In this document: positions 38,454-62,473 of the stretch, in pieces | How the letters are laid out: the number at the start of each line of letters is the position of its first letter | How positions within the stretch are numbered: the first letter of the stretch is position 1 | Assembly: GCF_026810505.1 (NCBI RefSeq) | Contig: NZ_CP101750.1 | Span: forward strand, 8,730,515-8,794,514 | Direction: 5' to 3' | Source: Streptomyces sp. Je 1-369 | GTDB taxonomy: Bacteria; Actinomycetota; Actinomycetes; Streptomycetales; Streptomycetaceae | Length of the DNA: 64,000 bases | Notes under the pieces: generated by a model | What the model saw: the letters and a program-made list of their open reading frames with translations, nothing else | Told to the model about the DNA's origin: nothing | Database searches by the model: none | Position numbers and translations under genes: made by a program

Positions 38454-38921
38454 TCAGCCGCGGGCGCCGGGCGGTACCCCGTCCACCCAGATCAGCCCGA
38501 ACGAGAGCCGGGCCAGGCGCCAGCCGCCCGGAGTGCGGCGGGCCGCGCCGCTCACCGAGGTGCCGGTGGTGAACAACTCCGGGCCCGGGCCGCCGGGATG
38601 GTGCACGTGGGTGGAGAGCAGATTGGCGCGCAGGCTCGCCCCGTCACCCGCCAGCTCCACCACCGCAGGCGAGTTCAGATGCTGGGTGCGCGCGAAATTC
38701 TCCAGCGCGTCCCGGTGCCATGCGGCGAGCCCGGCCATTCCCTCGTGCCGGCTCAGCGGGAATGCGACCACCGCGTCCTCGGTGAACAGGGTGCGCGCCC
38801 ACGCGTCATCGAGCTTTTCGGTGTCCAACGCCAGCAGATAACGGTCCAGCAGACCGCGCACGGTAAAGGCGTCCACCATGGCCGTGTCCGGAGTGAAGGA
38901 TTCAGCTTCAGTCGAGGTCAT
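38454..38921 (-). CDS. SnoaL/NTF2-like polyketide cyclase-like protein
   Basis: 155 aa from MTSTEAESFTPDTAM. It has the SnoaL-like alpha+beta cone: VRGLLDRYLLALDTEKLDDAW, LFTEDAVVAFPL, RTQHLNSPAVVELAG, ending GGWRLARLSFGLIWVDG. The family contains ring cyclases, hydroxylases without cofactors and ketosteroid isomerases. It is divergent from the PKS hydroxylase gene, and the two share a 175-nt promoter region. It is a candidate tailoring or cyclisation enzyme. Confidence 0.72.
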   Translation of the reverse strand: MTSTEAESFTPDTAMVDAFTVRGLLDRYLLALDTEKLDDAWARTLFTEDAVVAFPLSRHEGMAGLAAWHRDALENFARTQHLNSPAVVELAGDGASLRANLLSTHVHHPGGPGPELFTTGTSVSGAARRTPGGWRLARLSFGLIWVDGVPPGARG

Positions 38922-38964
38922 GCTTGAGAATGGGCCCACACACCCGCCCCGACCAACCCCGCCT

Positions 38965-38978
38965 GTCAAAGATCTGAC
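38965..38978. promoter_or_regulatory. imperfect palindrome in the SnoaL/PKS divergent promoter region
   Basis: GTCAAAGATCTGAC, with arms GTCA/TGAC around the palindrome AGATCT. It lies between the divergent SnoaL-like gene and the first gene of the PKS operon, so it is a possible operator. Weak evidence. Confidence 0.25.
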
Positions 38979-39096
38979 GTTGCCCGCACATTTCTGTAGT
39001 GGACTGCAAAAGCTGTGTACCGGCGTCCCTTTACCGGCCGCTCGGGCGCTGTCCATACTCGTAAAACATCAACCACAAGACGGCGGATGGGCGACG

Positions 39097-40572
39097 ATGG
39101 ACAATTATGACGCGGACGTGATCATCGTAGGTGCAGGACCCACCGGCCTTATGCTCGCCGGTGAGTTGGGCCAGCACGGAATTTCCGTTCTCGTGCTCGA
39201 CAGGCTCGCCGAACCGATGCGGCAGTCACGCGCCCTCGGCTTCTCCGCGCGCACCATCGAGGAATTCGCACAGCGCGGACTGCTGACCCGCCTCGGCGAG
39301 GTCGACACCATCCCCGGCGGGCACTTCGGCGGCGTACCGCTGGACTACCAGGTGCTCAGCGGCGGTTCCTACGGCGCACGCGGCATCCCCCAGTCCCGCA
39401 CCGAGGCGATGCTGGCCGGCCACGCCACCGAACAGGGCGCCCGCATCCGCCGCTCGGTGGAGGTCACCGGCCTCGGCCAGGACGAGCACGGGGTGACCCT
39501 GCACACGAGCGGCACCGGGACACAGGACGGCGGCCAGGAACTGCGCGCCCGGTACGTCATCGGGTGCGACGGCGCCCGCAGCCAGGTGCGCGCCGCCGCC
39601 GGCATCGACTTCCCCGGCACCGAACCGGCCATCGAGCTGCGCTTCGCCGACATCAGCGGGGTGCGGCTGCGGCCCCGCTTCGCCGGGGAACGGGTACCCG
39701 GCGGCATGATCATGGTGCTGCCGCTGGGCCCGGACCGCTGCCGCATCATCTACTACGACCGCAGCGAGCCGCTGCGCAAGAGCACCGAGCCGATCACCTT
39801 CGACGAGGTCGCCGACACCTTCCAGAAGCTGTCGGGCGAGGACATCCACGCGGCCACCCCGCTGTGGGTGAGCTCGACCACCGACGTGAGCCGACAGGCC
39901 GAGCGGTACCGGCACGGCCGGGTGTTCCTGGCCGGCGACGCCGCACACATCCACCTGCCCATCGGCGCCCAGGGCATGAGCGCCGGCGTGCAGGACGCGG
40001 TCAACCTCGGCTGGAAACTCGCCCTCGTCCTCAAGGACCTGGCCCCCGACACCCTGCTGGACACCTACCACAGCGAACGCCACCCGGTCGGCGCCCGCAT
40101 CCTGACCAACACCCTGGCCCAGCGCATCCTCTACCTCGGCGGCGAGGAGATCACCCCGCTGCTCGACGTCTTCACCGAACTCACCCGCTACGACTCGGTC
40201 CAGCGCCACCTGGTCGGCATGGTCACCGGCCTGGACATCCGCCACGACGTCGGCGCGGGGGAGCACCCCCTGCTCGGCCGGCGCCTTCAGGACGGCGACC
40301 TGACCTGCGAGGGCCGGCCCACCCGCGTCCACGCCCTGCTGCACACCGGCCGCGGCGTACTGCTCGACCTCGGCGCCGACAGCGCGCTGCCGGCCGCCGC
40401 CAAGGCCTGGTCGGACCGCGTCGACATCGTCACCGCACGCCCCGGCCCCACCCTGCCCGCCGCCGAGGCGATCCTGCTGCGCCCCGACGGCTACATCGCC
40501 TGGATCGCGCCCGACCCGGACGCGCTGCCCCTGCCCGCCGCCCTGGAGCGCTGGTTCGGCCCCGCCGCCTGA
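39097..40572 (+). CDS. FAD-dependent aromatic hydroxylase (angucycline PgaE/UrdE-position)
   Basis: 491 aa from MDNYDADVIIVGAGPTGLML. DG motif YVIGCDGARSQVR near 155, GD motif RVFLAGDAAHIHLPIGAQG near 285, and a C-terminal domain ending DGYIAWIAPDPDALPL. In angucycline clusters (pga, urd, jad) an oxygenase of this family precedes the cyclase and minimal PKS. The position here is the same except for the intervening ring-opening oxygenase. Its likely role is hydroxylation of the nascent benz[a]anthracene (C-12/C-12b type oxidation). Confidence 0.88.
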   Translation: MDNYDADVIIVGAGPTGLMLAGELGQHGISVLVLDRLAEPMRQSRALGFSARTIEEFAQRGLLTRLGEVDTIPGGHFGGVPLDYQVLSGGSYGARGIPQSRTEAMLAGHATEQGARIRRSVEVTGLGQDEHGVTLHTSGTGTQDGGQELRARYVIGCDGARSQVRAAAGIDFPGTEPAIELRFADISGVRLRPRFAGERVPGGMIMVLPLGPDRCRIIYYDRSEPLRKSTEPITFDEVADTFQKLSGEDIHAATPLWVSSTTDVSRQAERYRHGRVFLAGDAAHIHLPIGAQGMSAGVQDAVNLGWKLALVLKDLAPDTLLDTYHSERHPVGARILTNTLAQRILYLGGEEITPLLDVFTELTRYDSVQRHLVGMVTGLDIRHDVGAGEHPLLGRRLQDGDLTCEGRPTRVHALLHTGRGVLLDLGADSALPAAAKAWSDRVDIVTARPGPTLPAAEAILLRPDGYIAWIAPDPDALPLPAALERWFGPAA

Positions 40573-40790: not shown

Positions 40791-41486
40791 ATGCCCTACA
40801 TCTCCACCCAGGACAAGCACCTGACCGTCCTCAACCTGTTCACCACCGACCAGCCGGAGAAGCAGGACAAGCTGATCCAGGAGATGCGGAAGATCGTCGA
40901 CACCGCGGCGTTCGACGGCTGGATCTCCTCCACCGTGCACGCCGGACAGGACAGCCCCGGCACCGCCAACTTCATCCAGTGGCGCAGCGGCGAGGACCTG
41001 GAGAAGCGGTATGCGGGCGAGGAGTTCAAGCACCGCACGCTGCCCGTCTTCCAGGACATCACCACCTCGATCCGGCTGCTGCAGAGCGAGATCGTCCATA
41101 CCCAGCGCCACCCCTCCCAGGGCGAGGCCACCGAGGTCTCGCCCGACCGCGACGACCACACCGTCATCGAGATCTTCAAGGTCTCCCAGAGCAACCAGGA
41201 CGAGCTGATCGCCGAACTCGGCGAGGGCCAGTCCTGGCTCCTGGAGGTCGACGGCTACCGCTCGCACAGCGTCTTCAAGGGCCTGCGCGCCCGCTTCCTG
41301 GAAGGCCCCTTCGTCGTCGTCTACTCCCAGTGGGCGAGCAAGGCCGACTACGACGCCCACCGCCACCAGGCCACCGCGCGGCAGTCCGAGGCCCGCCAGA
41401 AGTCCGAGGCGCGCATCAACGCCCTGAAGACCGAGAGCGACTGGAACTCCTACCGGGTGATCCACAGCCGCGCCGCCGGCGCGTGA
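40791..41486 (+). CDS. tandem antibiotic-biosynthesis-monooxygenase (ABM) protein, AlpJ/JadG/GilOII-like ring-opening oxygenase
   Basis: 231 aa with two ABM ferredoxin-like domains (residues ~10-100 and ~118-215). The first shows [18 protein letters not shown] and [17 protein letters not shown]. The second shows [17 protein letters not shown] and [17 protein letters not shown]. Two-domain ABM proteins of this length in angucycline clusters (AlpJ, JadG, GilOII) open the B ring of dehydrorabelomycin oxidatively. That leads to the benzo[b]fluorene of kinamycin, or to jadomycin or gilvocarcin skeletons. Its place between the PgaE-like hydroxylase and the cyclase fits. This gene is the best sign that the product is an atypical, ring-contracted angucycline. 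Confidence 0.8.
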
Positions 41487-41575: not shown

Positions 41576-41905
41576 ATGCACAGCACGCTGATCGTGGCCC
41601 GGATGGCGATCGACTCCAGCCGCAGCGTCGCCGAACTGTTCACCGACTTCGACGCCACCGACATGCCCCACCGCATGGGCACCCGCCGCCGCCAGCTCTT
41701 CGCCTACCGCGGCCTGTACTTCCACCTCCAGGACTTCGACTCCGACGACGGAGGCGCCCGCATCGAACGCGCCAAGGACGATGCCCGCTTCGTGCGGATC
41801 AGCGACGACCTCAAGCCGCACATCGAGGCCTACGACCCGGCCACCTGGCGCTCCCCGGCCGACGCGATGGCCCAGCGCTTCTACTCCTGGGAGGCCGGCG
41901 CATGA
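41576..41905 (+). CDS. TcmI-family polyketide cyclase
   Basis: 109 aa from [15 protein letters not shown], with AAGGAG-like sequence upstream. It has the PF04673-type dimeric alpha/beta barrel: [44 protein letters not shown] and [19 protein letters not shown]. JadI, PgaF and TcmI of this family close later rings of aromatic polyketides. Here it immediately precedes and overlaps KS-alpha by 4 nt, the standard angucycline order. Confidence 0.9.
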
Positions 41906-43173
41906 CGCAGCGCCGCGTCGTCATCACCGGCCTGGAGGTCCTGGCCCCCGGCGGCCTGGGCCGCAAGGAGTTCTGGCAGCTCATCAGCGAGGGCCGCACC
42001 GCGACCCGCGGCATCACCTTCTTCGACCCCGCCCCCTTCCGCTCCAAGGTGGCCGCCGAGGCCGACTTCTGCGGCCTGGAGCACGGGCTGAGCCCGCAGG
42101 AGGTGCGGCGCATGGACCGCGCCGCCCAGTTCGCCGTGGTCACCGCCCGCGCCGCCGTCCAGGACAGCGGCGCCGAGCTGAGCGAGCACGCCCCGCACCG
42201 CATCGGCGTGGTCGTGGGCAGCGCGGTGGGCGCCACCATGGGCCTGGACGACGAATACCGCGTCGTCAGCGACGGCGGCCGCCTGGACCTGGTCGACCAC
42301 CGCTACGCGGTGCCGCACCTGTACAACTACCTGGTGCCCAGCTCCTTCGCGGCGGAGGTGGCCTGGGCGGTCGGCGCGGAAGGCCCCTCCACGGTCGTCT
42401 CCACCGGCTGCACCTCGGGCATCGACGCGGTCGGCTACGCGGTGGAGCTGGTGCGCGAGGGCTCCGTCGACGTCATGGTCGCCGGGGCGTCCGACGCGCC
42501 GATCTCCCCGATCACCATGGCGTGCTTCGACGCGATCAAGGCGACCACGCCGCGCCACGACGCACCCGAACAGGCCTCACGGCCCTTCGACAGCACCCGC
42601 AACGGCTTCGTGCTGGGCGAGGGCGCCGCCTTCTTCGTCCTGGAGGAGCTCGAGAGCGCCCGGCGCCGCGGCGCCCACATCTACGCCGAGATCGCCGGCT
42701 ACGCCACCCGCTCCAACGCCTACCACATGACCGGACTGCGCCGGGACGGCGCGGAGATGGCCGAGGCCATCCGCCTGGCCCTGGACGAGGCACGGATGAT
42801 CCCCGAGCAGATCGACTACATCAACGCCCACGGCTCGGGCACCAAGCAGAACGACCGGCACGAGACGGCCGCGTTCAAACGGGCGCTGGGCGAGCACGCC
42901 TACCGCACCCCGGTCAGCTCCATCAAGTCGATGGTGGGCCACTCGCTGGGCGCCATCGGCTCCATCGAGATCGCCGCCTCCGCGCTGGCCATGGAGTACG
43001 ACGTGGTGCCGCCGACCGCCAACCTGCACACCCCCGACCCCGAATGCGACCTGGACTACGTGCCGTTGACGGCCCGCGACCAGCAGGTCGATGCGGTCCT
43101 GACGGTCGGCAGCGGCTTCGGCGGATTCCAGAGCGCGATGGTGCTCGCCCCGGCGCGAAGGAGCACCGTATGA
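41902..43173 (+). CDS. ketosynthase alpha subunit of type II PKS
   Basis: 423 aa. The catalytic triad is visible: Cys170 in [16 protein letters not shown], His310 in [16 protein letters not shown], and His347 in [13 protein letters not shown]. It condenses malonyl units on the ACP with the chain-length partner encoded next (4-nt overlap). The overall sequence is that of angucycline-type KS-alpha (JadA/PgaA/AlpA position), expected to build a decaketide. Chain length cannot be proved from sequence reading alone. Confidence 0.95.
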
Positions 43174-44381
43174 CTGCCGTCGCGGTCACCGGCATGGGCA
43201 TCGCCGCCCCCAACGGCCTGGGCGCGGCCGACTACTGGGCGGCCACCCTCGGCGCGAAGAGCGGCATCGGCCGCATCACCCGCTTCGACCCCTCGAGCTA
43301 CCCCGCCCAACTGGCCGGGGAGATCCCCGGGTTCGAGGCGGCGGAGCACCTGCCGGGCCGGCTGCTGCCGCAGACCGACCGCGTCACCCGGCTCTCGCTG
43401 GCCGCCGCGGACTGGGCGCTGGCCGACGCCGGGGTGGACGTGGCCGCCTTCGACCCGCTGGACATGGGGGTGGTCACCGCAAGCCACGCCGGCGGCTTCG
43501 AGTTCGGCCAGGACGAACTGCAGAAACTGTGGGCCAAGGGCAGCCAGTTCGTCTCCGCCTACCAGTCCTTCGCCTGGTTCTACGCGGTCAACAGCGGCCA
43601 GATCTCCATCCGGCACGGCATGAAGGGGCCCAGCGGCGTCGTCGTCAGCGACCAGGCCGGCGGCCTGGACGCCCTTGCGCAGGCCCGCCGCCTCATCCGC
43701 AAGGGCACCCCGCTGATCGTGGGCGGCGCCGTGGACGCCTCGGTGTGCCCCTGGGGCTGGGTGGCCCAGCTCGCCGGCGGCCGCATGAGCGACAGCGACG
43801 AACCCACCCGCGCCTACCTGCCCTTCGACCGCGACGCCCGCGGCTACGTGCCCGGCGAGGGCGGCGCCCTGCTCACCCTGGAACCCACCGAGGCCGCCCG
43901 CGCCCGCGGCGCCACCCTCTACGGCGAACTCGCCGGCTACGGAGCGACCATCGACCCGCCCCCGCACAGCGGCCGCCCCTCCACCCTGCGCACCGCGATG
44001 CGCACCGCACTGCAGGACGCCGCCGCCGCGCCCGGCGACATCGACGTGGTCTTCGCCGACGGCGCGGGCGTACCCGACCTGGACCGGGCCGAGGCCGCGG
44101 CGATCAGCGAGGTGTTCGGCCCGGGCCGCGTCCCGGTCACCGTGCCCAAGACGATGACCGGCCGCCTGCACTCCGGCGCCGCGCCCCTGGACGTGGCCTG
44201 CGCGCTCCTGGCGATGCGCGCCGGCCTCATCCCGCCCACCGTCCACATCGACCCCTGTCCCGAGTACGACCTGGACCTGGTCCTGTACCAGGCGCGCCCG
44301 GCCGCGCTGCGCACCGCGCTGGTGCTGGCCCGCGGCCACGGCGGGTTCAACTCCGCGATGGTCGTGCGCGCCGGACAGTGA
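43170..44381 (+). CDS. ketosynthase beta subunit / chain length factor
   Basis: 403 aa. It is KS-like, but the active-site Cys is replaced by Gln162 in [15 protein letters not shown], the hallmark of chain length factors; the His pair of KS is also lost. It forms the heterodimer with KS-alpha, decarboxylates malonyl-ACP for priming, and sets chain length. Start overlaps KS-alpha by 4 nt. Confidence 0.95.
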
Positions 44382-44454
44382 ACCGCCCCGCGGCACACCG
44401 GCGGCGCCCTGCCGCCTTGCCGGCCGGGCCCGAGACGAAGGAAGCAGACCAACC

Positions 44455-44724
44455 ATGAGCGAGCAGCCCTTCACCCTGGACGACCTCACGCGCATCCTCG
44501 TCGAGGCCGCGGGCGCCGACGAGGCCGCCCCGCTGGACGACGACATCCTGGACACCGCCTTCGGCCTGCTGGGCTATGAGTCGCTGGCCCTGCTGGAGAC
44601 CGGCGGCTGCATCGAGCGCGAGTACGGCATCGCGCTGGACGACGACACGCTGAGCGACGACCTGACCCCGAGGGAACTGATCCACACCGTCAACGAGCGG
44701 CTGGCCGCCGCCCGCGTGGCCTGA
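44455..44724 (+). CDS. acyl carrier protein of type II PKS
   Basis: 89 aa. Ser43 in FGLLGYESLALLETG is the phosphopantetheine attachment site (DSL/ESL motif), followed by the usual REYGIALDDDTL helix III region. It holds the growing poly-beta-keto chain. It lies 73 nt after the chain length factor and 13 nt before the ketoreductase. Confidence 0.95.
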   Translation: MSEQPFTLDDLTRILVEAAGADEAAPLDDDILDTAFGLLGYESLALLETGGCIEREYGIALDDDTLSDDLTPRELIHTVNERLAAARVA

Positions 44725-44737
44725 GAGGACACCCGCC

Positions 44738-45523
44738 ATGACACAGACCGCCCCCCGCCTCGCCCTGGTCACCGGCGCCACCAGCGGCATCGGCCTGGCC
44801 GCCGCCCGCCTGCTCGCCCAGCAGGGCCACCGAATCTTCCTGGGCGCCCGCACCGACAGCGACGTCGTCGCCACCGTCAAGTCCCTGCGCAACGACGGCC
44901 TGGAGGCCGAGGGCCAGGTCCTCGACGTGCGCGACGGCGCCTCCGTCACCGCGTTCGTGGCCGCCGCCGTGGAGCGGTTCGGGCCCGTGGACGTGCTGGT
45001 CAACAACGCCGGCCGGTCCGGCGGCGGGGTGACCGCGCAGCTCACCGACGAACTGTGGGACGACGTCATCGACACCAACCTCAACAGCGTCTTCCGCATG
45101 ACCCGCGCCGTCCTGACCACCGGCCGCATGCAGGAGGGCGGCCGCGGCCGCATCATCAACGTCGCCTCCACCGCCGGCAAGCAGGGCGTCGTGCTCGGCG
45201 CCCCCTACTCCGCCTCCAAACACGGCGTCGTCGGCTTCACCAAGGCGCTCGGCAACGAGCTCGCGCCCAGCGGCATCACTGTCAACGCCGTATGCCCCGG
45301 CTACGTGGAGACCCCCATGGCCCAGCGCGTGCGCCAGGGCTACGCCGCCGCCTACGACACCACCGAGGAGGCGATCCTCACCAAGTTCCAGGCCAAGATC
45401 CCCCTGGGCCGCTACAGCACCCCCGAGGAAGTCGCCGGCCTCATCGGCTACCTCGCCTCCGACACCGCCGCCTCCATCACCTCCCAGGCCCTCAACGTCT
45501 GCGGCGGACTCGGCAACTTCTGA
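44738..45523 (+). CDS. polyketide ketoreductase (C-9 KR type)
   Basis: 261 aa. SDR fold: NADPH motif TGATSGIGLAAARLL, NNAGRSGGGVT, catalytic Ser144 (NVASTAGKQG), Tyr157 and Lys161 (APYSASKHGVVGF). It has the type II KR ending LASDTAASITSQALNVCGGLGNF. It reduces the C-9 carbonyl of the nascent chain after first-ring closure, as act KR and JadE do. Confidence 0.95.
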   Translation: MTQTAPRLALVTGATSGIGLAAARLLAQQGHRIFLGARTDSDVVATVKSLRNDGLEAEGQVLDVRDGASVTAFVAAAVERFGPVDVLVNNAGRSGGGVTAQLTDELWDDVIDTNLNSVFRMTRAVLTTGRMQEGGRGRIINVASTAGKQGVVLGAPYSASKHGVVGFTKALGNELAPSGITVNAVCPGYVETPMAQRVRQGYAAAYDTTEEAILTKFQAKIPLGRYSTPEEVAGLIGYLASDTAASITSQALNVCGGLGNF

Positions 45524-45565
45524 CCGCCCCGATCGCCCCGCCCCGATCGCCCCGCCCCGCCCGCC
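45524..45565. repeat. three 14-nt units (CCGCCCCGATCGCC) after the KR stop
   Basis: 45524-45537 and 45538-45551 are identical; a third is degenerate. They fill the start of the 62-nt gap before the aromatase/cyclase. Confidence 0.8.
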
Positions 45566-45585
45566 CCGTACGAGGAGCACCTGCC

Positions 45586-46530
45586 ATGACGACGCGTCAG
45601 GTCGAGCACGAGATCACCATCGGCGCGCCCGCGGCCACGGTCTACCGCCTGCTGGCGGACGTGAGCCACTGGCCGCAGATCTTCCCGCCCACCATCCACG
45701 TCGAGCGCGAGGAGACGGGCGAGCACCAGGAGCGCATCCGCATCTGGGCCACCGCCAACGGCGAGCCCAAGAACTGGACCTCGCGCCGCACCCTGGACCC
45801 CGAGGGCCTGCGCATCGTCTTCCGCCAGGAGGTCACCACCGCGCCCGTCGCCGCGATGGGCGGCACCTGGATCGTCGAGCCGCAGGGCCAGGACACCTCC
45901 CGGGTGCGGCTGCTGCACGACTACCGGGCCATCGACGACGACCCGGCGGACCTGCGGTGGATCGAGAGGGCCGTGGACACCAACAGCACCGCGGAACTGG
46001 CCGCCCTCAAGGACAACGTCGAACACGCCCACGCCGCCGAGCGCGAGGACCTGGTCTTCTCCTTCACCGACACCGTGGAGATCAACGGCGCCGCCAAGGA
46101 CGCCTTCGACTTCGTCAACGAGGCCGGGCGCTGGCCCGAACGGCTGCCGCACGTGGCCACCGTACGCTTCGAAGAACCCGCCCCCGGCCTGCAGATCCTG
46201 GAGATGGACACCCGCGCCAAGGACGGCTCGGTGCACACCACCAAGTCCTACCGGGTCGCCCTGGACACCCGCAAAATCGCCTACAAGCAGGTCACCCTGC
46301 CCGCCCTGATGACCCTGCACACCGGCTACTGGACCTTCACCGACACCGGCCGGGGCACCACCGAGGCCGCCTCCCAGCACACCGTGTCGATCAACACCGC
46401 CAACATCGCCAAGATCCTCGGCGACCGGGCCACCGCCGCCGACGCCCGCGCCTACGTGCACAGCGCGCTGTCCACCAACAGCCGCGCCACGCTGGGCCAT
46501 GCCAAGGACTACGCGGAGCGGACCCACTGA
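45586..46530 (+). CDS. didomain aromatase/cyclase (SRPBCC)
   Basis: 314 aa with GAGGAG upstream of ATG. It has two START/SRPBCC domains. The first (~1-140) shows EHEITIGAPAATVYRLLADVSHWPQIFPPT. The second (~160-300) begins TVEINGAAKDAFDFVNEAGRWPERLP. Such didomain enzymes (JadD, PgaL, ActVII position) cyclise and aromatise the first ring of KR-reduced polyketides, consistent with the KR gene immediately upstream. Confidence 0.93.
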   Translation: MTTRQVEHEITIGAPAATVYRLLADVSHWPQIFPPTIHVEREETGEHQERIRIWATANGEPKNWTSRRTLDPEGLRIVFRQEVTTAPVAAMGGTWIVEPQGQDTSRVRLLHDYRAIDDDPADLRWIERAVDTNSTAELAALKDNVEHAHAAEREDLVFSFTDTVEINGAAKDAFDFVNEAGRWPERLPHVATVRFEEPAPGLQILEMDTRAKDGSVHTTKSYRVALDTRKIAYKQVTLPALMTLHTGYWTFTDTGRGTTEAASQHTVSINTANIAKILGDRATAADARAYVHSALSTNSRATLGHAKDYAERTH

Positions 46531-46531: not shown

Positions 46532-48076
<1,545 letters not shown>

Positions 48077-51722: not shown

Positions 51723-51750
51723 CGTCGTCCCCTTCGATCCCGGTCGGTGT

Positions 51751-54120: not shown

Positions 54121-54196
54121 CCGGCGCGCCGGACGGAAGGGGGCGCCGCGCCGAATCCCCCGCGGCGCGCGCCCCCGCCCCACCCCCGCAGCCCCG

Positions 54197-54247: not shown

Positions 54248-54291
54248 CTGCCTGAAAGCGGCGTCGATGTTGATCCAAGAGAGGAAAAATC

Positions 54292-54744
54292 ATGGAAGCG
54301 CGCCTGCAGAACCCGGCGATGATCCTTGACGCCACCCAGCCTGTGCAGGACATGTACAAGGCGATCTACTCCGGTGGAGTCCCGAAGACGACCCTGGACC
54401 TGGTCCACCTGCGCGCGAGCCAGATCAACGGCTGCAGCCCCTGTGTGGACTCCGGGGCCCGCGGCGCCCGCAAGGCCGGCGAGACCGAGGAGCGCCTGTT
54501 CGCCGTCGCCGCCTGGCGGGAGACCTCCTACTTCACCGACGCCGAGCGCGCCGCGCTGGAGCTGTCCGAGTGCGCCACCCGCCTCGCCGACCGCTCCGAC
54601 CCGGTGCCGGACGACGTGTGGGAGCGCGCCAAGGCCCACTACGACGAGAAGGGCCTGGCGGCCCTGATCCTCATGGTCTCCCTGACCAACTTCTTCAACC
54701 GCCTGAACGTGACCACCAAGGCGATCGCCGGCGCCTGGGGCTGA
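54292..54744 (+). CDS. carboxymuconolactone decarboxylase/AhpD-like protein with CxxC
   Basis: 150 aa with GAGAGGA upstream of ATG. It has the CMD/AhpD fold: LVHLRASQINGCSPCVDSGAR (redox CxxC near residue 46), VAAWRETSYFTDAERAALEL and LILMVSLTNFFNRLNVT. It is probably a thiol-dependent peroxidase or oxidoreductase. CMD-domain proteins are the best-known targets of ECF41 sigma factors, and this gene has such a promoter. Its paralogue at 24160 has lost the CxxC. Confidence 0.88.
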   Translation: MEARLQNPAMILDATQPVQDMYKAIYSGGVPKTTLDLVHLRASQINGCSPCVDSGARGARKAGETEERLFAVAAWRETSYFTDAERAALELSECATRLADRSDPVPDDVWERAKAHYDEKGLAALILMVSLTNFFNRLNVTTKAIAGAWG

Positions 54745-55480: not shown

Positions 55481-55807
55481 GTGAGCGAGAACGCATTGCC
55501 GGCGGCGAAATCCGCCCGTTCCGAGCGGATCGCCGCGCGAACTCGCGGCGAGAACTGGAAGAAGCCACCGCGCCGCATAGAAACCTCGGAGTGCATCACC
55601 TGCGACAGCTGCCTGCGCGGCTGCCCCGAGGAGTTCGGCGCCATATTCGACCGCGGTCTTGACGTCATCATCATTCCCGAACTGTGCTCGGGCTGCCCCG
55701 CCTGCGTCCTGGAGTGCCCCGTCGACTGCATCTACGTCGACGAGGACTGGGAGTCCACCGACGCGAGCCTGTGGAGCCACATCGACCTGTCCGCGGGCAC
55801 CTCATGA
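55481..55807 (+). CDS. 2[4Fe-4S] ferredoxin of the hydrazine-synthon operon
   Basis: 108 aa from GTG (VSENALPAAKSARSER); an in-frame ATG at 55442 would add 13 residues. Both clusters are complete: CITCDSCLRGCP and CSGCPACVLECPVDC. A ~45-residue basic leader precedes them. It supplies electrons for a reductive step in the pathway. Ferredoxins accompany the N-N-forming gene set of the kinamycin/fosfazinomycin type; reduction during N-N bond formation is the likely role, but this is an inference. The stop overlaps the next gene by 4 nt. Confidence 0.88.
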   Translation: MSENALPAAKSARSERIAARTRGENWKKPPRRIETSECITCDSCLRGCPEEFGAIFDRGLDVIIIPELCSGCPACVLECPVDCIYVDEDWESTDASLWSHIDLSAGTS

Positions 55808-57774
55808 CCGGGCCCGCCGAAACGAACGGGCCCGCCGAAACGACCGGGCCCGCCGAACGCGAGAGCCGCCGCGCCGCCAACGCCAGAAAACGCCTCAGCC
55901 GCCGCCCCAGCCGCCTGGGCACCACCGCGGGCACCGCACCGGGCCCCGACCGCACCCGCGAGCCCGGCGCCGGCTTCCCCGCCCTCCTGGAACGGGTCTG
56001 GCAGCGCGCCCGCACCGCCGCCGACCTGCGCACGAGCGTCGACATCCTCCTCAACCTGGACGGCCACGTACCGCCCCAGGTACAGCTGCGGGCCCTGAGC
56101 ACCACCGAGGAAGCCGCCTTTCACGCCCTGTGGGGCCTGACCTGGCGCGAGGACACCACCACCGCCACCGCACACGAGAGCACCGACACCGCCGAACCGG
56201 CCGTCGTCGACCTCATCGAAGCCGCCGCCGAGGAACCCGTCTTCGTCGGCGAACTCGCCCTGGCCACCACCGGCCGCATCGTCCTGCGCGGCCCCACCCA
56301 GGGCCCCCTGGACCGCCGCCACCTGGTCGGCGGCGTCCTGCGCGTGCCCTGGTCCCTGCAGGCCGCCCGCGCCTACCACGCCCACATGAGCCGCGCCGCC
56401 GCCCGCACCGCCCACACCCTGGCCGACTGCCGCGCCTGGCTGGAGCGCCAGGGCGAGAAGGGCCGCGACGAACTCCTGGACCAGGCCAAGGAAGCGGCCC
56501 TGCGCACCGCCCCCTTCGTGCTCTACCAAGAACACCGCCAGTACACCAACTTCCGGGAGCAGAACAGCCTCACCGGCAAGACCCTGTGGCCCGGACACCC
56601 CGACTGCGTCCTGAGCAGCCTGCAGCAACTGCCCCTGGAACTCTGGTCGGACCACGACGTGCAGCTGGTCATCGCCCTGACCCTGCTCATCCGCTCCGCC
56701 GGCGCCGGCCGGGTGGAGGAGGCCAACGGCACCCAGCTGAGCATCGACCACGTCGCCGCCATGCTGGAACGCATCCGCCACACCTACGACAGCGTCCCCG
56801 GCGAGCCGATCGCCCCCGCCGCCTCCCACGGCGTGGAGGACCTCAAGACCCTCGCCGAAGCGCTCGGCGCACGCCGCCGCCAGGTGATCCGCCAGGTCCC
56901 CCTCTACCGCGAGATCCACGGCACCCTGATGCACAAGGTGGAACGCATCGCCGCCGACACCGACGGGGTACGACACCACGACGAGGAACTCAGCCGCCGC
57001 CTGACCGGCCGCCTGCCGCTGACCGGCACCACCCTGGACGAACTCGGGCACAGCACGGCCGCCGACCCCGCCTGGCTCGCCCGCCCGCACGGCACCCACG
57101 CCACCGGCCTGGAAGCACTCGTCCACGAAAGCGTCACGGCCGTCGCCGACGTGTTCGCCGCCGACTTCGCCATGAGCCGCGGCATGCGCTCCCTGCCCGC
57201 GCTGATCACCGCGCTGCGCACCGAGAGCTGGGCGGAGATCTGCGGCTGGGACATCACCCACTACTTCTGCTGCGTGGTGCCCCGCCCCCAGGCGCGCACC
57301 CACTTCGGCGGCTCGGTCGAGGCGATGGCGGACGCGGCCTGGGCGATGTCCTCCCGCATGCAGTACAACTCCTGGCACTTCGTGCCCGGCAACCTGCCCC
57401 GCCACCCCGCCGTGGTGGCCCGCGACCACTTCGTGCCGCCCACCATCCCCGACATCGCCTTCTTCTCCGACCAGCACCACCACGGGCACGTCAGCAACCA
57501 GGTGCGCTTCTCCATCCGCTCCCCCCAGCCCGTCGAGGTCGCCGGACGCACCTTCAACGGCTTCGTCGACCTGCGCCTGCTGCGCTGCGCCGGCACCCCC
57601 TTCACCGAACCCGACCTGCTCGCCGCCCACCGCGCCTCCCGCTTCATCGCCCGCGCCACCACCCTGGCCGCCGAACTCACCCTCACCGGCACCCCCGTCG
57701 AGGTCACCGCCTTCGACGCCCCCTGGCACTGGCAGACCATCACCCACCCCGCCCCCCAGGGCACCCCACGATGA
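55804..57774 (+). CDS. conserved protein of unknown function in the hydrazine operon (656 aa)
   Basis: 656 aa beginning MTGPAETNGPAETTGPAE, a short repeat. No standard domain is recognised. Conserved-looking stretches include FVLYQEHRQYTNFREQNSLTG (by position 237-257), EICGWDITHYFCCVVPRP near 480, RMQYNSWHFVPGNLPRHP near 520, and the His-rich FFSDQHHHGHVSNQVRF near 555. The His/Cys-rich C-terminal third suggests a metal or haem site. Its place between the ferredoxin and amidase, with overlapping starts, makes it the best candidate for the N-N bond-forming or nitrite-handling enzyme. This is inference only. Confidence 0.7.
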   Translation: MTGPAETNGPAETTGPAERESRRAANARKRLSRRPSRLGTTAGTAPGPDRTREPGAGFPALLERVWQRARTAADLRTSVDILLNLDGHVPPQVQLRALSTTEEAAFHALWGLTWREDTTTATAHESTDTAEPAVVDLIEAAAEEPVFVGELALATTGRIVLRGPTQGPLDRRHLVGGVLRVPWSLQAARAYHAHMSRAAARTAHTLADCRAWLERQGEKGRDELLDQAKEAALRTAPFVLYQEHRQYTNFREQNSLTGKTLWPGHPDCVLSSLQQLPLELWSDHDVQLVIALTLLIRSAGAGRVEEANGTQLSIDHVAAMLERIRHTYDSVPGEPIAPAASHGVEDLKTLAEALGARRRQVIRQVPLYREIHGTLMHKVERIAADTDGVRHHDEELSRRLTGRLPLTGTTLDELGHSTAADPAWLARPHGTHATGLEALVHESVTAVADVFAADFAMSRGMRSLPALITALRTESWAEICGWDITHYFCCVVPRPQARTHFGGSVEAMADAAWAMSSRMQYNSWHFVPGNLPRHPAVVARDHFVPPTIPDIAFFSDQHHHGHVSNQVRFSIRSPQPVEVAGRTFNGFVDLRLLRCAGTPFTEPDLLAAHRASRFIARATTLAAELTLTGTPVEVTAFDAPWHWQTITHPAPQGTPR

Positions 57775-59177
57775 CCGCCGGGGCGACCGGGGCGATCGGG
57801 GAGCTCACCGGGCGGCTGCGGCGGGGCGAGACGACCGTCGTCGAGCACGTGCAGGCCGTGCTGAGCGCCGTACGCGAACGAGACACCCTCGGCGCGTTCG
57901 TCACCGCCGCCGGCGACGAAGCGCTGCGCGCCGCCGAGCAGGCCGACCGCCGCATCCGCGAACGCGGCACGCAGGCCTGGCAGGGCACCCCGCTGCTCGG
58001 CGTCACGGTCTCCGTCAAGGACCTCCTGCAGACCCGCGACCTGCCCACCACCCGCGGCTCCCTGCTGCCCAACCACCGCCCCCGACAGGACGCCCCGGCC
58101 GTCGCCCGGCTGCGCGCCGCCGGCGCCGTCATCATCGGCAAGACCACGACCAGCGAGTACGGCTGGAGCGCCACCACCCTGGGCCGCACCGCCGCGCCCA
58201 CCGCCAACCCCTACGCCCCCCACCTGAGCGCGGGCGGCTCCAGCGGCGGGGCCGCCGCCGCGGTCGCCACCCACCTGGGCGAGGGCGCCCTGGCCACCGA
58301 CGGAGCCGGCTCCATCCGCATCCCCGCCGCGTTCTGCGGCGTGGCCGGCTACAAACCCTCCTACGGACGCGTCCCCTACGTCCCCAACGGCGTCGACCGC
58401 CTCGCCCACCAGGGCACCCTGGCCCGCACCGTCACCGACGCCGCAGCGCTCGCCGCCGTCATCGCAGGCCCCCACCCCGCCGACCCCGACTCCGGCCTCG
58501 GCTCCATCGACCTGCCCTCCCACCGCCGCCGCCAGCACATCGGATGGATCGAGTACGAGGGCACCACCGACGAGATCCGCAAAGTCACCGAACAGGCGAT
58601 GCACGCCCTCCGGGGCCAGGGCCACCACATCGAACGCATCCAGGTGCGCTGCAAGGACCTCTACCCCGCCCTCGTCGACATCCTGGCCGCCGCCGAAGCC
58701 GCCGGCACCACCCGCCAGGACGAAGAACACTGCGACCCGGGCCGCCTGGAAATCGTCCGCTACGGCCGCACCCTGAGCGGCACCGCCCTGATGCGCGCCG
58801 AAGAGGTCCGCCAGCAACTGCGCACCCGGCTGCGCTCGGTGATGCGCCGCCACCACCTGCTGGCCATGGCCACCGTCCCCATCGAACCCTTCGACCTGCA
58901 CGCCATCGCCCCGCCCTGGGCGGCCGACCCCCGCGACCTGCTCTGGCTGGCCTGGTCACCCGCCTCCTACCCCTTCAACATGACCGGCCAGCCCGCGGTG
59001 ACCCTCCCGGCCGGCCTGACCGGCTCCGGACTGCCCGCCGGCATCCAGCTCGTGGGCCCCGTCGGCGCCGACGAACTGGTCCTGACGGTGGCCCACCGCC
59101 TGGAAAGGGAGCTGGGAGCCCTGCCCCCGCCCCGCCCCGGGCACGCGCTCGTCCCCGCCACCGAAAGGACCCCCTGA
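57771..59177 (+). CDS. amidase-signature family hydrolase (FzmO/KinK-like)
   Basis: 468 aa. The amidase signature triad is visible: Lys83 (VSVKDLL), cis-Ser157/158 (SAGGSSGGAAAA) and nucleophile Ser181 (TDGAGSIRIPAAFCG). It hydrolyses or transfers amide-like bonds. In the gene set shared by fosfazinomycin and kinamycin pathways, hydrazine is carried as a glutamyl (acetyl)hydrazide, and an amidase is expected to release or transfer it. The start overlaps the 656-aa gene by 4 nt. Confidence 0.85.
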   Translation: MTAGATGAIGELTGRLRRGETTVVEHVQAVLSAVRERDTLGAFVTAAGDEALRAAEQADRRIRERGTQAWQGTPLLGVTVSVKDLLQTRDLPTTRGSLLPNHRPRQDAPAVARLRAAGAVIIGKTTTSEYGWSATTLGRTAAPTANPYAPHLSAGGSSGGAAAAVATHLGEGALATDGAGSIRIPAAFCGVAGYKPSYGRVPYVPNGVDRLAHQGTLARTVTDAAALAAVIAGPHPADPDSGLGSIDLPSHRRRQHIGWIEYEGTTDEIRKVTEQAMHALRGQGHHIERIQVRCKDLYPALVDILAAAEAAGTTRQDEEHCDPGRLEIVRYGRTLSGTALMRAEEVRQQLRTRLRSVMRRHHLLAMATVPIEPFDLHAIAPPWAADPRDLLWLAWSPASYPFNMTGQPAVTLPAGLTGSGLPAGIQLVGPVGADELVLTVAHRLERELGALPPPRPGHALVPATERTP

Positions 59178-59180: not shown

Positions 59181-60677
59181 ATGTACACCCGCGCATGGCG
59201 CTCCGTAGCCGCCCAGGACGCCGTCGGCACGCCGTCCTTCGTCGCCGACCACCACCTGTGGAGCGAGGAGCAGTTCGCCGCCGCCGAACAGATCGAGGCC
59301 GACCTCGCCCACCTCGACTTCGTCCGCCTGGTCTTCTGCGACCCGCACGGCCTGGCCCGCTCCAAGACCCTGACCGCGGACACCTTCGCCTCCGTCCTGC
59401 GCAACGGCATGAACTTCAGCCCCGGCCCCTTCCTCTTCGACACCGGCCACGCCCTCGCCGTCGACCTGGGCGACCCCGGCCTGGGCGTCGAAGAACTCAC
59501 CGGCGCCGGCAACTTCATCCTCGTACCCGACCCGCTGACCTTCCAGCTCCTGCCCGACACCCAGCCGCGCACCGCCTGGGTCATCGGCGACGAATACCTG
59601 CGCGAGGGCACCCGCCACCCGCTGTCCTCCCGCGCCGTGCTGCGCCGCCTGAGCGACCAGTACACCGCCCACGGCTACACCCCGGTCACCGGCCTGGAAG
59701 TCGAGTGGTACCTCACCCGCCTCCTGCAGGAGACGCCCGGCAACACGGGCAACGGCTTCGGCCTGCAAGGCCAAGCCCCCCCGGTGGCCGCGATGAACGC
59801 CGGCTACCAGTTCAACCTCGACGCCCGCTACGACTCCGTCGCCCACATCACCGACCCCCTGGCGATGCACCTGGCCGCGCTCGGCCTGCCGCTGCGCTCC
59901 ATGGAACACGAATCGGGCCCCGGCCAGGTCGAATCCACCTTCAGCCCGATGTCCGCCCTGGACACCGCGGACGCGATGCTGCTGTTCCGCACCGCCACCA
60001 AACGCTGGTGCGCCCGCCGCGGCCACCACGCCTCCTTCATGTCACAGCCGCGCCTGGACGCCTTCGACCCCAGCGGCTGGCACCTGCACCAGTCCGTCCT
60101 GGACACTGAAAGCGGCCGCAACCTCTTCGCCGCCGACGGCCCCGCGGGCGGCCTGTCCCCGCAGGCCAAGGCCTACGCGGACGGCCTGCTCGCCTACAGC
60201 AGGGAGCTGTTCCTGCTCTCGGTGCCCACCGTCAACGGCTACCGCAGGCTCAACTCCCGCCACGCGCTGGCCCCCACCCGCATGGACTGGTCCATGGAGG
60301 ACCGCAGCGTCATGCTCCGCATGGTCGGCGGCGGCACCGGCGCCCACATCGAAAACCGCAGCGGCGAACCGTGCGCCAACCCCTACCTCGCCATCGCCGC
60401 CCAGCTCTTCGCCGGCCTCACCGGCCTGACCGGCACCCCGGACGCCGAACGCCCCGCCCCGGCCACCGGCCAACACGTGCCGCAGTCCCTGGGCGAAGCC
60501 CTCACCGCCTTCACCGCCGGCCGCGCCGACCAGCTCCTGGGCCGCCCGCTGGCCACCTGCCTCACCCGGCTCAAGGAGAGCGAACTGCGCCGCTACGAAA
60601 CCTGGTGCGCCACCACCGGCACCAGCCCGGACCAGGTCACCGCCTGGGAACAGCGCGAGTACTTCGAGGCGTACTGA
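59181..60677 (+). CDS. glutamine synthetase-like ligase (glutamylhydrazine synthetase, FzmN/KinJ-like)
   Basis: 498 aa. The GS beta-grasp N-terminus is ADLAHLDFVRLVFCDPHGLARSKTL (positions ~40-64). The catalytic domain shows VTGLEVEWYL, MEHESGPGQVESTFSP, ASFMSQPRLD, GWHLHQSVLD, and ENRSGEPCANPYLAIAAQL. It is of the GlnT/PuuA-like branch rather than primary GlnA. Homologues in fosfazinomycin and kinamycin pathways ligate hydrazine to the side chain of glutamate with ATP. It is the key gene that places this locus in the hydrazide/diazo group. The ATG is 4 nt after the amidase stop. Confidence 0.87.
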   Translation: MYTRAWRSVAAQDAVGTPSFVADHHLWSEEQFAAAEQIEADLAHLDFVRLVFCDPHGLARSKTLTADTFASVLRNGMNFSPGPFLFDTGHALAVDLGDPGLGVEELTGAGNFILVPDPLTFQLLPDTQPRTAWVIGDEYLREGTRHPLSSRAVLRRLSDQYTAHGYTPVTGLEVEWYLTRLLQETPGNTGNGFGLQGQAPPVAAMNAGYQFNLDARYDSVAHITDPLAMHLAALGLPLRSMEHESGPGQVESTFSPMSALDTADAMLLFRTATKRWCARRGHHASFMSQPRLDAFDPSGWHLHQSVLDTESGRNLFAADGPAGGLSPQAKAYADGLLAYSRELFLLSVPTVNGYRRLNSRHALAPTRMDWSMEDRSVMLRMVGGGTGAHIENRSGEPCANPYLAIAAQLFAGLTGLTGTPDAERPAPATGQHVPQSLGEALTAFTAGRADQLLGRPLATCLTRLKESELRRYETWCATTGTSPDQVTAWEQREYFEAY

Positions 60678-60679: not shown

Positions 60680-60734
60680 GTGCCGACCAGCCGCGTGCCG
60701 AACACCCGCGTGCCGACAGCCACCCGCGTGCCGA
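60680..60734. repeat. four GCGTGCCGA repeats in the gap before the lyase gene
   Basis: CGTGCCGA/CGCGTGCCGA recurs about every 15 nt (60679-60686, 60692-60701, 60707-60716, 60725-60734) in the 82-nt gap between the ligase and lyase genes. Probably slippage-derived; no gene in it. Confidence 0.7.
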
Positions 60735-60759
60735 TACCCCGCAGAACAGAGGTCGTTGC

Positions 60760-62049
60760 ATGATCGCCCGATACACCCTGCCCGAGATGGCGGACCTCTT
60801 CAGCGACCAGACCCGCTACGCCACCTGGGTCCGCGTCGAGATCCTCGCCACCGAGGCACAAGTACGCCTGGGACGCGTCCCCGAGGACGCCGTGCGCGAC
60901 ATGCGCCGCGCCCCCGTACCGCTCGCGCACCGCATCGCCGAGATCGAGAAGGACCGCGACCACGAAGTCCTCTCCTTCCTGGCCGCCTACTGCGAGAACA
61001 TCCCCGAAACCACCGCACGCTGGGTCCACCTGGGCATGACCAGCTACGACCTGGTCGACACCGCGCTGGGCCACACCCTGGCCCGCGCCACCGACCTGCT
61101 GAGCGGGGCCGCCCGCCGCCTGCGCCGCACCCTGGTGGCCCGCGCCCTGGAGCACTTCGACACCCTCATGGTCGGCCGCACCCACGGCATCCACGCCGAG
61201 CCGACCACCTTCGGCCACAAACTCGCCGGCTACGCCTTCGCCGTCGACCGCTCCCTGACCCGCCTGGCGGCCGCCCGCGAAGCCGTCGCGGTGGGCACCG
61301 TCTCCGGCTCGGTGGGCACCTACGCCCTCATCGACCCCTACGTCGAACAGTACGTGTGCCAGTCCCTGGGCCTTGGCATCGAGCCCGCGCCCAGCCAGGT
61401 CGTCGCCCGCGACCGCCACGCCCAACTCGTACAGGCAGTGGCCGCGTTGGGGGCCTGCGTCGAACAGATCGCCCTGGAGATGCGGCTGTTGCAGCGCACC
61501 GAGGTCGCCGAGGTCGAAGAACAGCGCGCCCCGGCCTACCAGGGCTCCAGCGCCATGCCCCACAAACGCAACCCCACCACCAGCGAACGGCTGTGCGGCC
61601 TGGCCCGCCTGCTGCGCGGCTACGCCACCACCGCCCTGGAGGACGTCGCGCTGTGGCACGAGCGGGACCTGGCCCACCAGTGCGTCGAGCGGGTCATCCT
61701 GCCCGACAGCCTGGCCGTGGCCCACTTCCAGGCCACCAAGGCCGAAGAGCTGCTGACCCACCTCACCGTACGGCCCGAGACGATGCGCGCCGCACTGGAG
61801 CGCACCCACGGCCTCATCTACAGTTCGGCCGTCCTGGTCGACCTGCTCGGCGACGGCACCGAGCGCGAGCACGCCTACCGCTCGGCGCAGGCCGCCGCCA
61901 ACCGGACGGCGGCCACCGCCACCCCCTTCCGGGACACCCTGGCCACCGAGGGCGTCGAGCTGCGCGAAGAGCTGCGGCCCGAGCGCTTCCTCGTCCACCA
62001 CGACGTCATACGGCGGCGATTGGAGATGCTCGATGAACTGGAAGACTGA
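60760..62049 (+). CDS. adenylosuccinate lyase-like enzyme (hydrazinosuccinate lyase, FzmR/KinM-like)
   Basis: 429 aa, highly PurB-like. Motifs are GRTHGIHAEPTTFG (catalytic His ~142), GTVSGSVGTYALIDPYVEQY, and the superfamily signature YQGSSAMPHKRNP (~260-272) with the loop Ser. True PurB is a housekeeping gene; a copy inside this operon is best explained as the lyase that releases hydrazine and fumarate from hydrazinosuccinate. A nitrosuccinate lyase (CreD) role is the alternative, but the strong PurB likeness favours the former. The 3' end overlaps the acetyltransferase by 17 nt. Confidence 0.85.
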   Translation: MIARYTLPEMADLFSDQTRYATWVRVEILATEAQVRLGRVPEDAVRDMRRAPVPLAHRIAEIEKDRDHEVLSFLAAYCENIPETTARWVHLGMTSYDLVDTALGHTLARATDLLSGAARRLRRTLVARALEHFDTLMVGRTHGIHAEPTTFGHKLAGYAFAVDRSLTRLAAAREAVAVGTVSGSVGTYALIDPYVEQYVCQSLGLGIEPAPSQVVARDRHAQLVQAVAALGACVEQIALEMRLLQRTEVAEVEEQRAPAYQGSSAMPHKRNPTTSERLCGLARLLRGYATTALEDVALWHERDLAHQCVERVILPDSLAVAHFQATKAEELLTHLTVRPETMRAALERTHGLIYSSAVLVDLLGDGTEREHAYRSAQAAANRTAATATPFRDTLATEGVELREELRPERFLVHHDVIRRRLEMLDELED

Positions 62050-62473
62050 ACGCGTCAACGGAGGCGACCTCGACCTGGACGAGGTCCTGGCCGTCTACCA
62101 CGCCTCCGGCCTGGGCGAGCGACGCCCCGTCCAGGACCGCGAGCGGATGGCCGCGATGGTGCGCGAGGCCAACCTCGTCGTCGTCGCCCGCGAGGCGGAC
62201 GGCACCCTGATCGGCATCGCCCGCAGCATCTCCGACTTCTCCTACGTCACCTACCTCTCCGACATCGCCGTGGTCCTGGACCACCAGCGCTCGGGAGTGG
62301 GCATCGCCCTGATGGAGGAGACCCGCCGCCAGGCCCCCGACGCCAAGGTGGTGCTCCTGTCGGCGCCCGCCGCCGCCGGCTACTACCCGCGCGTGGGCTT
62401 CACCCGGCACGACTCCGCGTGGGTCCTGAACCCCGCGGCGCCCCTCCAGGGCCCACCGGCCACGAAACCGTAG
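62033..62473 (+). CDS. GNAT N-acetyltransferase of the hydrazine operon (FzmQ/KinN-like)
   Basis: 146 aa. The acetyl-CoA loop is DHQRSGVGIALMEETRR near 88, with beta-strand VVVAREADGTLIGIARS before it and YYPRVGFTRHDSAW after it. In fosfazinomycin/kinamycin-type pathways a GNAT enzyme acetylates the free nitrogen of (glutamyl)hydrazine. It is the final gene of the hydrazine operon and is translationally coupled to the lyase (17-nt overlap). Confidence 0.85.
   Translation: MNWKTERVNGGDLDLDEVLAVYHASGLGERRPVQDRERMAAMVREANLVVVAREADGTLIGIARSISDFSYVTYLSDIAVVLDHQRSGVGIALMEETRRQAPDAKVVLLSAPAAAGYYPRVGFTRHDSAWVLNPAAPLQGPPATKP

Follow-up and report, generated by a model that had tools for sequence, protein, structure and literature searches.

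A probable lomaiviticin-type diazobenzofluorene gene cluster in the terminal inverted repeats of Streptomyces sp. Je 1-369

The linear chromosome of Streptomyces sp. Je 1-369 (a single contig of 8.82 Mb, NZ_CP101750.1) very probably carries a diazobenzofluorene gene cluster of the kinamycin/lomaiviticin family that belongs to the lomaiviticin-type branch, is devoid of deoxysugar genes and occurs twice, within the terminal inverted repeats; its product is a prediction. We analyzed a stretch of 64,000 nucleotides (positions 8,730,515 to 8,794,514; G000:C1:25513-89512, minus strand, in our own numbering), referred to as the window, to which the coordinates below apply. The original prediction, made from the letters alone, had joined an angucycline polyketide synthase (PKS) to a hydrazine operon at 38878..62473 and proposed a kinamycin, lomaiviticin or fluostatin relative. 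The genes are present and the family assignment is supported, with late genes refining it to the lomaiviticin-type branch, but the range was too narrow, as the cluster extends from ~15.7 to ~71.5 kb with its final 7.5 kb beyond the window.

Gene starts were taken from our own codon-bias caller. Relatives were collected by an alignment search of named genomes with KinJ, the enzyme of N-N bond formation, giving 66 loci (L numbers; G numbers are genomes). Searches for the sulfotransferase, the Lom6-type hydrolase and the Alp1U-like hydrolase covered 45 genomes, equivalent to 45 of the 66 loci, with the other 21 left out. Comparison by name did not extend to the published records of alp, kin, lom, fls and nes; by our own assignment, Salinispora clusters, which we take to be lom (lomaiviticin), and plasmid NZ_CP024990, taken as kinamycin-type, served as stand-ins. 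Papers are cited by PMC number, each from part of its text.

Two copies at the chromosome ends

The ketosynthase genes and kinJ are found again as a mirror image at the opposite chromosome end. The two ends agree completely over four mirrored stretches (19001-75000 and 103001-122000, counted from the chromosome end) and in 2-kb probes placed 125 and 150 kb in; at 200 kb, the probe no longer matches (0.28). The cluster is present twice because it lies inside this terminal inverted repeat, whose probed extent is at least 152 kb. In S. ambofaciens, the alp (kinamycin) cluster is likewise reported in terminal repeats (PMC12181624).

Angucycline core and ring-opening oxygenases

Diazobenzofluorene clusters combine an angucycline minimal PKS with an AlpJ-family ring-opening oxygenase, and both are found in the window:

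39151..40572, plus: g42, AlpK-type flavin adenine dinucleotide (FAD) oxygenase (PDB 6j0z 694 bits, FlsO1 615 bits)
40791..41486, plus: g43, AlpJ-family ring-opening ABM oxygenase
41576..41905, plus: g44, TcmI cyclase (Pfam)
41902..43173, plus: ketosynthase alpha, KSalpha (Pfam)
43170..44381, plus: KSbeta (Pfam)
44455..44724, plus: acyl carrier protein, ACP (Pfam)
44738..45523, plus: ketoreductase, KR (Pfam)
45586..46530, plus: g49, aromatase/cyclase (Pfam)
46532..48076, plus: g50, angucycline FAD oxygenase (PgaE/CabE-type match, 462 bits)
48126..49721, plus: g51, angucycline FAD oxygenase (PgaE/CabE-type match, 623 bits)

The minimal PKS, KR, aromatase/cyclase and TcmI cyclase that had been predicted are thus all present on the plus strand, as seen in open reading frames, gene calls, Pfam and PDB matches, and the order of g44-g49 (41576..46530) is kept in loci L023 and L191. 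The ABM protein had been called AlpJ-type, and g43 indeed matches two-domain oxygenases over its whole length (298 bits to PDB 5f9p, presumably AlpJ, and 212 bits to 9kdp). When compared with non-ring-opening monooxygenases, it matched ActVA-Orf6 at only E=0.044, which rules out an ActVA-Orf6-type identity. The true start of g42 is probably ~18 codons (~54 nt) upstream of 39151, because the called protein begins opposite residue 19 of PDB 6j0z.

Genes for a hydrolase, a sigma factor, an MMPL transporter and a carboxymuconolactone decarboxylase (CMD) are inserted between the PKS and the hydrazine operon (50090-54744). The sigma factor-MMPL-CMD insert is common to S. atriruber L015 and Streptomyces sp. 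CNH099 L016, and sigma factor and MMPL genes also occur near KinJ in L031, L033 and L068.

Hydrazine operon

The hydrazine cassette KinI-KinN, including a KinJ-type enzyme, starts 5.8 kb past the PKS block:

55481..55807, plus: g57, KinI-type 2[4Fe-4S] ferredoxin (Fer4 dicluster domains)
55804..57774, plus: g58, KinJ-type heme enzyme of 656 aa, N-N bond formation
57771..59177, plus: g59, KinK amidase (Pfam)
59181..60677, plus: g60, KinL glutamine synthetase (GS)-like ligase (Pfam)
60760..62049, plus: g61, KinM lyase (Pfam)
62033..62473, plus: g62, KinN GNAT acetyltransferase (Pfam)
62556..63317, plus: g63, OmpR-type regulator, the usual operon neighbor (66-85% identity beside KinN in many Streptomyces loci)

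Described beforehand as one tightly overlapping operon, it is tight, although not all of its genes overlap (intergenic gaps of -4, -4, +3, +82 and -17 nt). The 656-aa protein, left unnamed in the original prediction, has no Pfam or NCBIfam match and can now be placed as KinJ, a heme enzyme reported in 2025 (PMC12154649), with 65% identity to SAM23877_7494 of S. ambofaciens; heme binding by the protein studied here is predicted. The seven proposed KinJ active-site residues (C489, M519, H525, H562, R518, R572 and R591, mapped to the published KinJ by a constant offset of 21 that we infer from PMC12154649) are all kept. They are invariant in 17 sequences and present in 79 of 79 locus hits, a set that includes the strain's own copies and several loci from one genome.

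KinI and KinJ are reported to convert aspartate and nitrite to hydrazinosuccinate (PMC12154649). The nitrogen genes that fosfazinomycin and kinamycin had been said to share are a five-gene hydrazine set (PMC6133997), but the carried synthon is described there as glutamylhydrazine, formed by deacetylation of glutamylacetylhydrazine, and not the glutamyl-carried acetylhydrazine that had been assumed. The fosfazinomycin cluster, which lay outside the loci compared by name, differs in yielding a phosphonate.

The order of KinI-KinN is the same in many KinJ loci. This grouping is not due to chance, because relatives of KinL (60-88% identity) occur in 55 of the 66 loci and those of the ferredoxin (62-95%) in 62. 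KinM shares at least 55% identity with its relatives in 54 of 55 loci with a long match (best 82%). Other genes of the strain's genome reach at most 35% to KinL and 37% to KinM. Comparison with primary-metabolism homologs, the check proposed for the GS-like and lyase proteins, places both with their KinJ-locus relatives, which are far closer, and rules out a primary-metabolism origin.

Using S. ambofaciens KinJ (P0039) against 392 Streptomyces genomes, we found 15 with a match at E<=1e-150 (the strain's own included), the best being 75% identical. KinJ relatives were also found on 7 of 72,556 plasmid records, all Streptomyces (NZ_CP109001, NZ_CP024990, NZ_CP107835, NZ_CP108489, NZ_CP045549, NZ_CP108220 and NZ_CP107979); therefore, the pathway appears to move between replicons. 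Outside Actinomycetota, KinJ-like proteins (L079, L080) occur in Bacillus glycinifermentans (26%) and Hydrogenophilus thiooxidans (40%, partial). Upstream of the window, at -21255 to -20080, a 391-aa protein is encoded whose relative (39-41%) lies near KinJ and ferredoxin genes in Nocardia and one Streptomyces (L053, L061-L065, L069).

Hydrazine coupling and nitrite supply

Beyond the window (window numbering continued), we found the genes predicted to encode an AlpH-type hydrazine-coupling enzyme and a CreD/CreE nitrite source:

63744-65201 (L010:9312-10769, minus): multicopper oxidase, between the OmpR and MFS genes
65198-66760: MFS exporter
66851-67936, minus: AlpH (514 bits to PDB 8h3t)
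68003-69394, minus: CreD nitrosuccinate lyase (nitrosuccinate lyase equivalog 764 against a cut-off of 650; PDB CreD 579 bits)
69439-71454, minus: CreE-like protein (PF13454, length and neighbor gene; no curated model)

AlpH is reported to join glutamylhydrazine to the polyketide without S-adenosylmethionine (PMC10477347). Its catalytic residues K266, H267, H270 and D271 stand at the same numbers as in 8h3t and are kept in 41 of 41 hits; the cysteine of the CxGxG motif is present here, yet in only 16 of the 41. The multicopper oxidase gene is missing between the OmpR and MFS genes in CNH099, and other multicopper oxidase genes occur in the clusters of S. coelicoflavus and NBC_01244. Multicopper oxidases can couple phenols, and a phenol-coupling oxidase has been sought for lomaiviticin dimers (PMC4506494).

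Late genes and branch assignment

The region upstream of the core holds the following late genes:

15684..16292, minus: g19, mycothiol-dependent nitroreductase-like protein of the DsbA family, a conserved late-gene neighbor (PF22234 266 bits; 63-65% in S. pacifica L060 and S. jeddahensis L107)
16334..17797, minus: g20, FAD amine-oxidase/protoporphyrinogen-oxidase-like (PF01593; 61-62% in S. pacifica and S. jeddahensis)
18034..18810, plus: g21, Lom6/FlsH-type alpha/beta hydrolase, candidate A-ring epoxide hydrolase/deacylase (60% in Micromonospora rosaria, 70% in S. pacifica)
18868..19581, minus: g22, NmrA-family protein, Lom19-like candidate (PF05368; 69% in S. pacifica L109)
19896..21590, minus: g23, FAD monooxygenase (PF01494; 68% in S. 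pacifica L109)
21775..22488, minus: g24, peptidase C26/glutamine amidotransferase-like, Alp1W-like candidate (PF07722; 63% in S. pacifica, 38% in the kinamycin-type plasmid)
22531..22872, minus: g25, Rieske ferredoxin (PF00355; 67% in S. pacifica L110)
23085..23813, minus: g26, short-chain dehydrogenase, SDR (PF00106; 74% in S. pacifica L109)
24160..24606, plus: g27, CMD-like (PF02627; adjoins the sulfotransferase gene here and in L104, L107, L109, L111 and L113)
24744..25457, plus: g28, sulfotransferase of the 3'-phosphoadenosine-5'-phosphosulfate (PAPS) type (PF17784 212 bits; PDB 9kf1 162 bits)
25838..27283, plus: g29, TAP-like alpha/beta hydrolase (PF08386, PF00561; 60% in S. pacifica L110 and S. 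jeddahensis L106)
27510..30457, plus: g30 and g31, two FAD aromatic-ring hydroxylases, A-ring oxygenase candidates (PF01494, PF21274; gap -4 nt; the pair 69-72% in S. jeddahensis L107 and S. wedmorensis L112, g30 65% in S. pacifica)

Most of these genes also occur in S. pacifica CNR114, S. jeddahensis, S. coelicoflavus and NBC_01244. The S. pacifica cluster (L060, L109, L110) shares with the present one the core, the hydrazine operon, a gene of the AlpH type and the late genes g19-g30, with 58% identity for the sulfotransferase; it differs in gene order, in its sugar genes and in having no CysN near KinJ. The plasmid NZ_CP024990 (Streptomyces sp. AMCC400023), on which KinJ has 72% identity with the S. 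ambofaciens protein, shares the PKS, KinI-KinN (62-80%), AlpH (69%), CreD (74%) and CreE (68%). Unlike the present cluster, it carries a FAD-NmrA-hydrolase-FAD block, which we take as a putative alp1S-T-U-V from the description in PMC4506494, and neither a sulfotransferase nor a Lom6-type hydrolase nor cys genes. None of its genes has g19-g23, g25-g29 or g32-g37 as best match. Because the late genes match Salinispora-type clusters and not the kinamycin-type plasmid, we assign the cluster to the lomaiviticin-type branch.

The hydrolase agrees with this assignment, being of the Lom6/FlsH type rather than the Alp1U type: residues S92, E115 and H241 of g21 stand at the numbers mutated in FlsH (PMC5970136), and its label rests on relatives (67-92% in 30 genomes), the Lom6 sequence itself being outside the comparison. 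Alp1U-like hydrolases occur in 11 of the 45 genomes, a search that did not include the strain's own. It is very unlikely that this is an ordinary kinamycin-type cluster, making a kinamycin with its extra late genes doing the work of alp1S-alp1V. Its core genes are nearer to the kinamycin-type plasmid than to Salinispora, and it shares with alp a location in terminal repeats; however, besides the missing late-gene matches on NZ_CP024990, an Alp1U-like hydrolase lies on the KinJ contig in only 3 of the 45 genomes (G032 92%, G004 59%, G005 52%), none of which has a sulfotransferase at 54%.

One trait of the lomaiviticin branch is absent. Eight sugar-protein queries from S. coelicoflavus, chosen for deoxysugar and glycosyltransferase genes, gave no match in the 122 kb of the strain's own sequence and none in CNH099 (42 kb), NBC_01244 (140 kb) or NZ_CP024990, as opposed to five of eight in S. 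pacifica and all eight in S. jeddahensis. Since NBC_01244 also lacks such matches, this strain is not the only one with a lomaiviticin-type cluster free of sugar genes. The nearest clusters are those of S. atriruber NRRL B-24165 (L015, 82-97%, on a 12-kb contig) and CNH099 (L016, L104; 71-86%), whose contigs are short or broken. CNH099 likewise has the sulfotransferase and hydrolase g21, but its single CysN is on another contig.

The sulfotransferase accompanies the Lom6-type hydrolase

The g28 protein fits its family profile and keeps the PAPS-binding residues (P-loop, H45, R107 and S115, found in 23 of 23 hits, two of them the strain's own copies), so that sulfotransferase activity is predicted. 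SgdX2 (PDB 8y9p, 145 bits over residues 14-215) is another PF17784 member, from a different pathway that we take to be that of sungeidine; the open-licence literature searched yielded no paper on SgdX2.

Relatives of g28 are found at 54-94% identity in 30 of the 45 KinJ genomes, at only 42% in one and not in the remaining 14. Those of g21 occur at 67-92% in exactly the same 30, at 42-60% in seven others (M. rosaria 60%) and not in eight. Fisher's exact test on this co-occurrence gives 3e-12, a value weakened by identity thresholds chosen after the results were seen and by related genomes that are not independent. The 30 genomes span Streptomyces, Actinomadura, Salinispora, Actinoallomurus, Thermomonospora, Kibdelosporangium, Kineosporia and Phytoactinopolyspora; in 26 the sulfotransferase gene lies within 60 kb of KinJ on the same contig, and in four on another contig. 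Among plasmids, 15 records match g28. The six with an identity of at least 60% all belong to the seven KinJ plasmids; the nine at 45% or less have no KinJ. A g21-type hydrolase of at least 66% is on five of these six plasmids, and the sixth strain has it on a sister plasmid.

No sulfotransferase at g28-type identity is present in the genome of M. rosaria, presumably a fluostatin-producing species, or on plasmid NZ_CP024990. Because the sulfotransferase accompanies Lom6-type hydrolases and is absent from these two, sulfation is proposed for the A ring. In the open-licence literature searched by title, supplements aside, we found no description of sulfation in the kinamycin/lomaiviticin family; the consulted text of PMC4506494, PMC5970136, PMC5867631 and PMC9391479 has no 'sulf' or 'sulfotrans' terms, though gene tables in their supplements may list the gene. 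Within this literature, the step appears undescribed for diazobenzofluorenes.

A separate class, made up of the 12 of 45 loci in which the 10 kb around KinJ hold no PKS, cyclase or ABM marker, was dropped, as PKS genes lie beyond 10 kb in all three that were re-examined (L017, L019 and L067, extended as L197, L198 and L199), and the test built on it (29/33 versus 1/12) was discarded. The flank L202, from a genome that had markers, showed no PKS gene.

PAPS supply genes

A set of sulfate-activation genes begins 52 nt after g31:

30510..33315, plus: g32-g34, cysC (adenosine-5'-phosphosulfate (APS) kinase), cysD and cysN (PF01583, PF01507, GTP_EFTU; gaps -4 and -1 nt)
33303..36097, plus: g35-g37, SsuABC-like importer, sulfonate/sulfate candidate (NMT1-like binding protein)

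The cysCDN-ssuABC order is the same in L132, L136, L141, L190 and L192. The genome has two further CysN genes (81% and 76%); at 6.95 Mb, one of them neighbors genes for a PAPS reductase (PF01507) and a sulfite reductase (PF01077). In the strain's own 122 kb and nine recruited stretches (L132-L138, L190, L192), a sulfite reductase query had no match and a PAPS reductase query found cysD genes only (25-28%). As cysH and cysI are thus unmatched there, the cluster copies retain only that part of sulfate assimilation which leads to PAPS. In six records (L132, L133, L136, L138, L190 and L192, with L132 and L190 both from S. coelicoflavus), cysC lies 74-151 nt behind the Lom6-type hydrolase gene on the same strand; in L134 and L135, cysD-cysN are beside the hydrolase gene, with the L134 CysN fused to an APS kinase domain.

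CysN occurs within 60 kb of KinJ in six of the 45 genomes, each of which also has the sulfotransferase (in the sixth, a contig end truncates the record). It is further present on at least five of the seven KinJ plasmids. The PAPS genes are thus an optional addition and the sulfotransferase a constant part. A CysN tree shows three pairs: the window copy with one from S. atriruber that lies beside a nonribosomal peptide synthetase-like gene (100/100), the S. coelicoflavus cluster copy with a chromosomal copy of its own species (100/98), and the Kibdelosporangium copy with the JOAA copy (100/100), while three other Streptomyces cluster copies fall together with weaker support (94/81). Because cluster copies fall in separate lineages, we read the tree as suggesting that such clusters captured PAPS genes three or four separate times. 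Another cysC-cysD-cysN set, accompanied by a CysC-containing protein of 660 aa, is found at G000:C1:7048000-7066000 (L140), with similar neighbors in S. atriruber L139, where a 1095-aa protein has P450, AMP-binding and carrier domains.

It is rather unlikely that no sulfation takes place, the sulfotransferase-like protein having another role and the cys genes only raising cysteine and mycothiol for detoxification. AlpH, which is O-methyltransferase-like yet transfers no methyl group (PMC10477347), offers a precedent, and the alp cluster has a mycothiol/detoxification subregion (PMC4506494) to which the mycothiol-nitroreductase-like g19 may be compared. However, the recruited stretches without cysH and cysI, the uniformly kept PAPS-binding residues and the way g28 tracks the Lom6-type hydrolase argue against it. 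Less likely still is a final product that retains its sulfate, as a sulfated diazobenzofluorene for export or self-protection. Sulfotransferase, PAPS supply and importer do stand in one cluster, and with no sugar genes here a sulfate could serve as the polar group instead, but the sulfotransferase is also in Salinispora clusters, lomaiviticins are not known to bear sulfate, and the PAPS operon is found in clusters with sugar genes as well.

Discussion

A pathway can be proposed in five steps, of which the first three are published for relatives of the enzymes, the fourth follows family membership and the fifth is a hypothesis. First, the PKS, KR, aromatase, cyclase and FAD oxygenases would make dehydrorabelomycin, whose ring B the AlpJ/AlpK-type enzymes would open and contract to a benzofluorene. 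Second, CreE and CreD would release nitrite from aspartate, KinI and KinJ would combine it with aspartate to hydrazinosuccinate, and KinN, KinM, KinL and KinK would convert this to glutamylhydrazine. Third, AlpH would couple glutamylhydrazine to the benzofluorene, leading to the diazo group. Fourth, the FAD pair g30/g31, SDR g26 and Lom6-type hydrolase g21 may oxidize ring A and open its epoxide. Fifth, with PAPS from cysC/cysD/cysN, g28 may sulfate an A-ring hydroxyl, and loss of the sulfate would be the elimination giving a lomaiviticin-type A ring.

Lomaiviticin and fluostatin A rings are predicted to need a dehydration after epoxide opening, which kinamycins do not, and no dehydratase is named in the cited text (PMC4506494). 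We tentatively suggest, as a possibility falling somewhat short of probable, that lomaiviticin-type pathways use a hidden sulfation after Lom6-type epoxide opening, that sulfate loss is the 'dehydration' separating their A rings from those of kinamycins, and that PAPS genes were repeatedly captured to feed it.

Apart from the caveat on the co-occurrence test, several points weigh against our interpretation. The product is a prediction read from the genes. The core is nearer to the kinamycin-type plasmid (KinJ 62%, AlpH 69%) than to S. pacifica (KinJ 57%, AlpH 55%). The lyase scores above the NCBIfam purB cut-off (387.1 versus 326.2 bits), although this is a matter of name only. Lom6 itself may couple epoxide opening and dehydration (PMC4506494), and PAPS genes are near KinJ in only the six genomes mentioned, with none found in CNH099, one of the two nearest relatives.

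For the lomaiviticins and kinamycins, which are strongly cytotoxic, the A-ring steps and the dimerization are understood only in part. With a sugar-free cluster on a complete chromosome, the product may be simpler to study, and the sulfotransferase and PAPS genes provide a directly testable candidate for a missing A-ring step.

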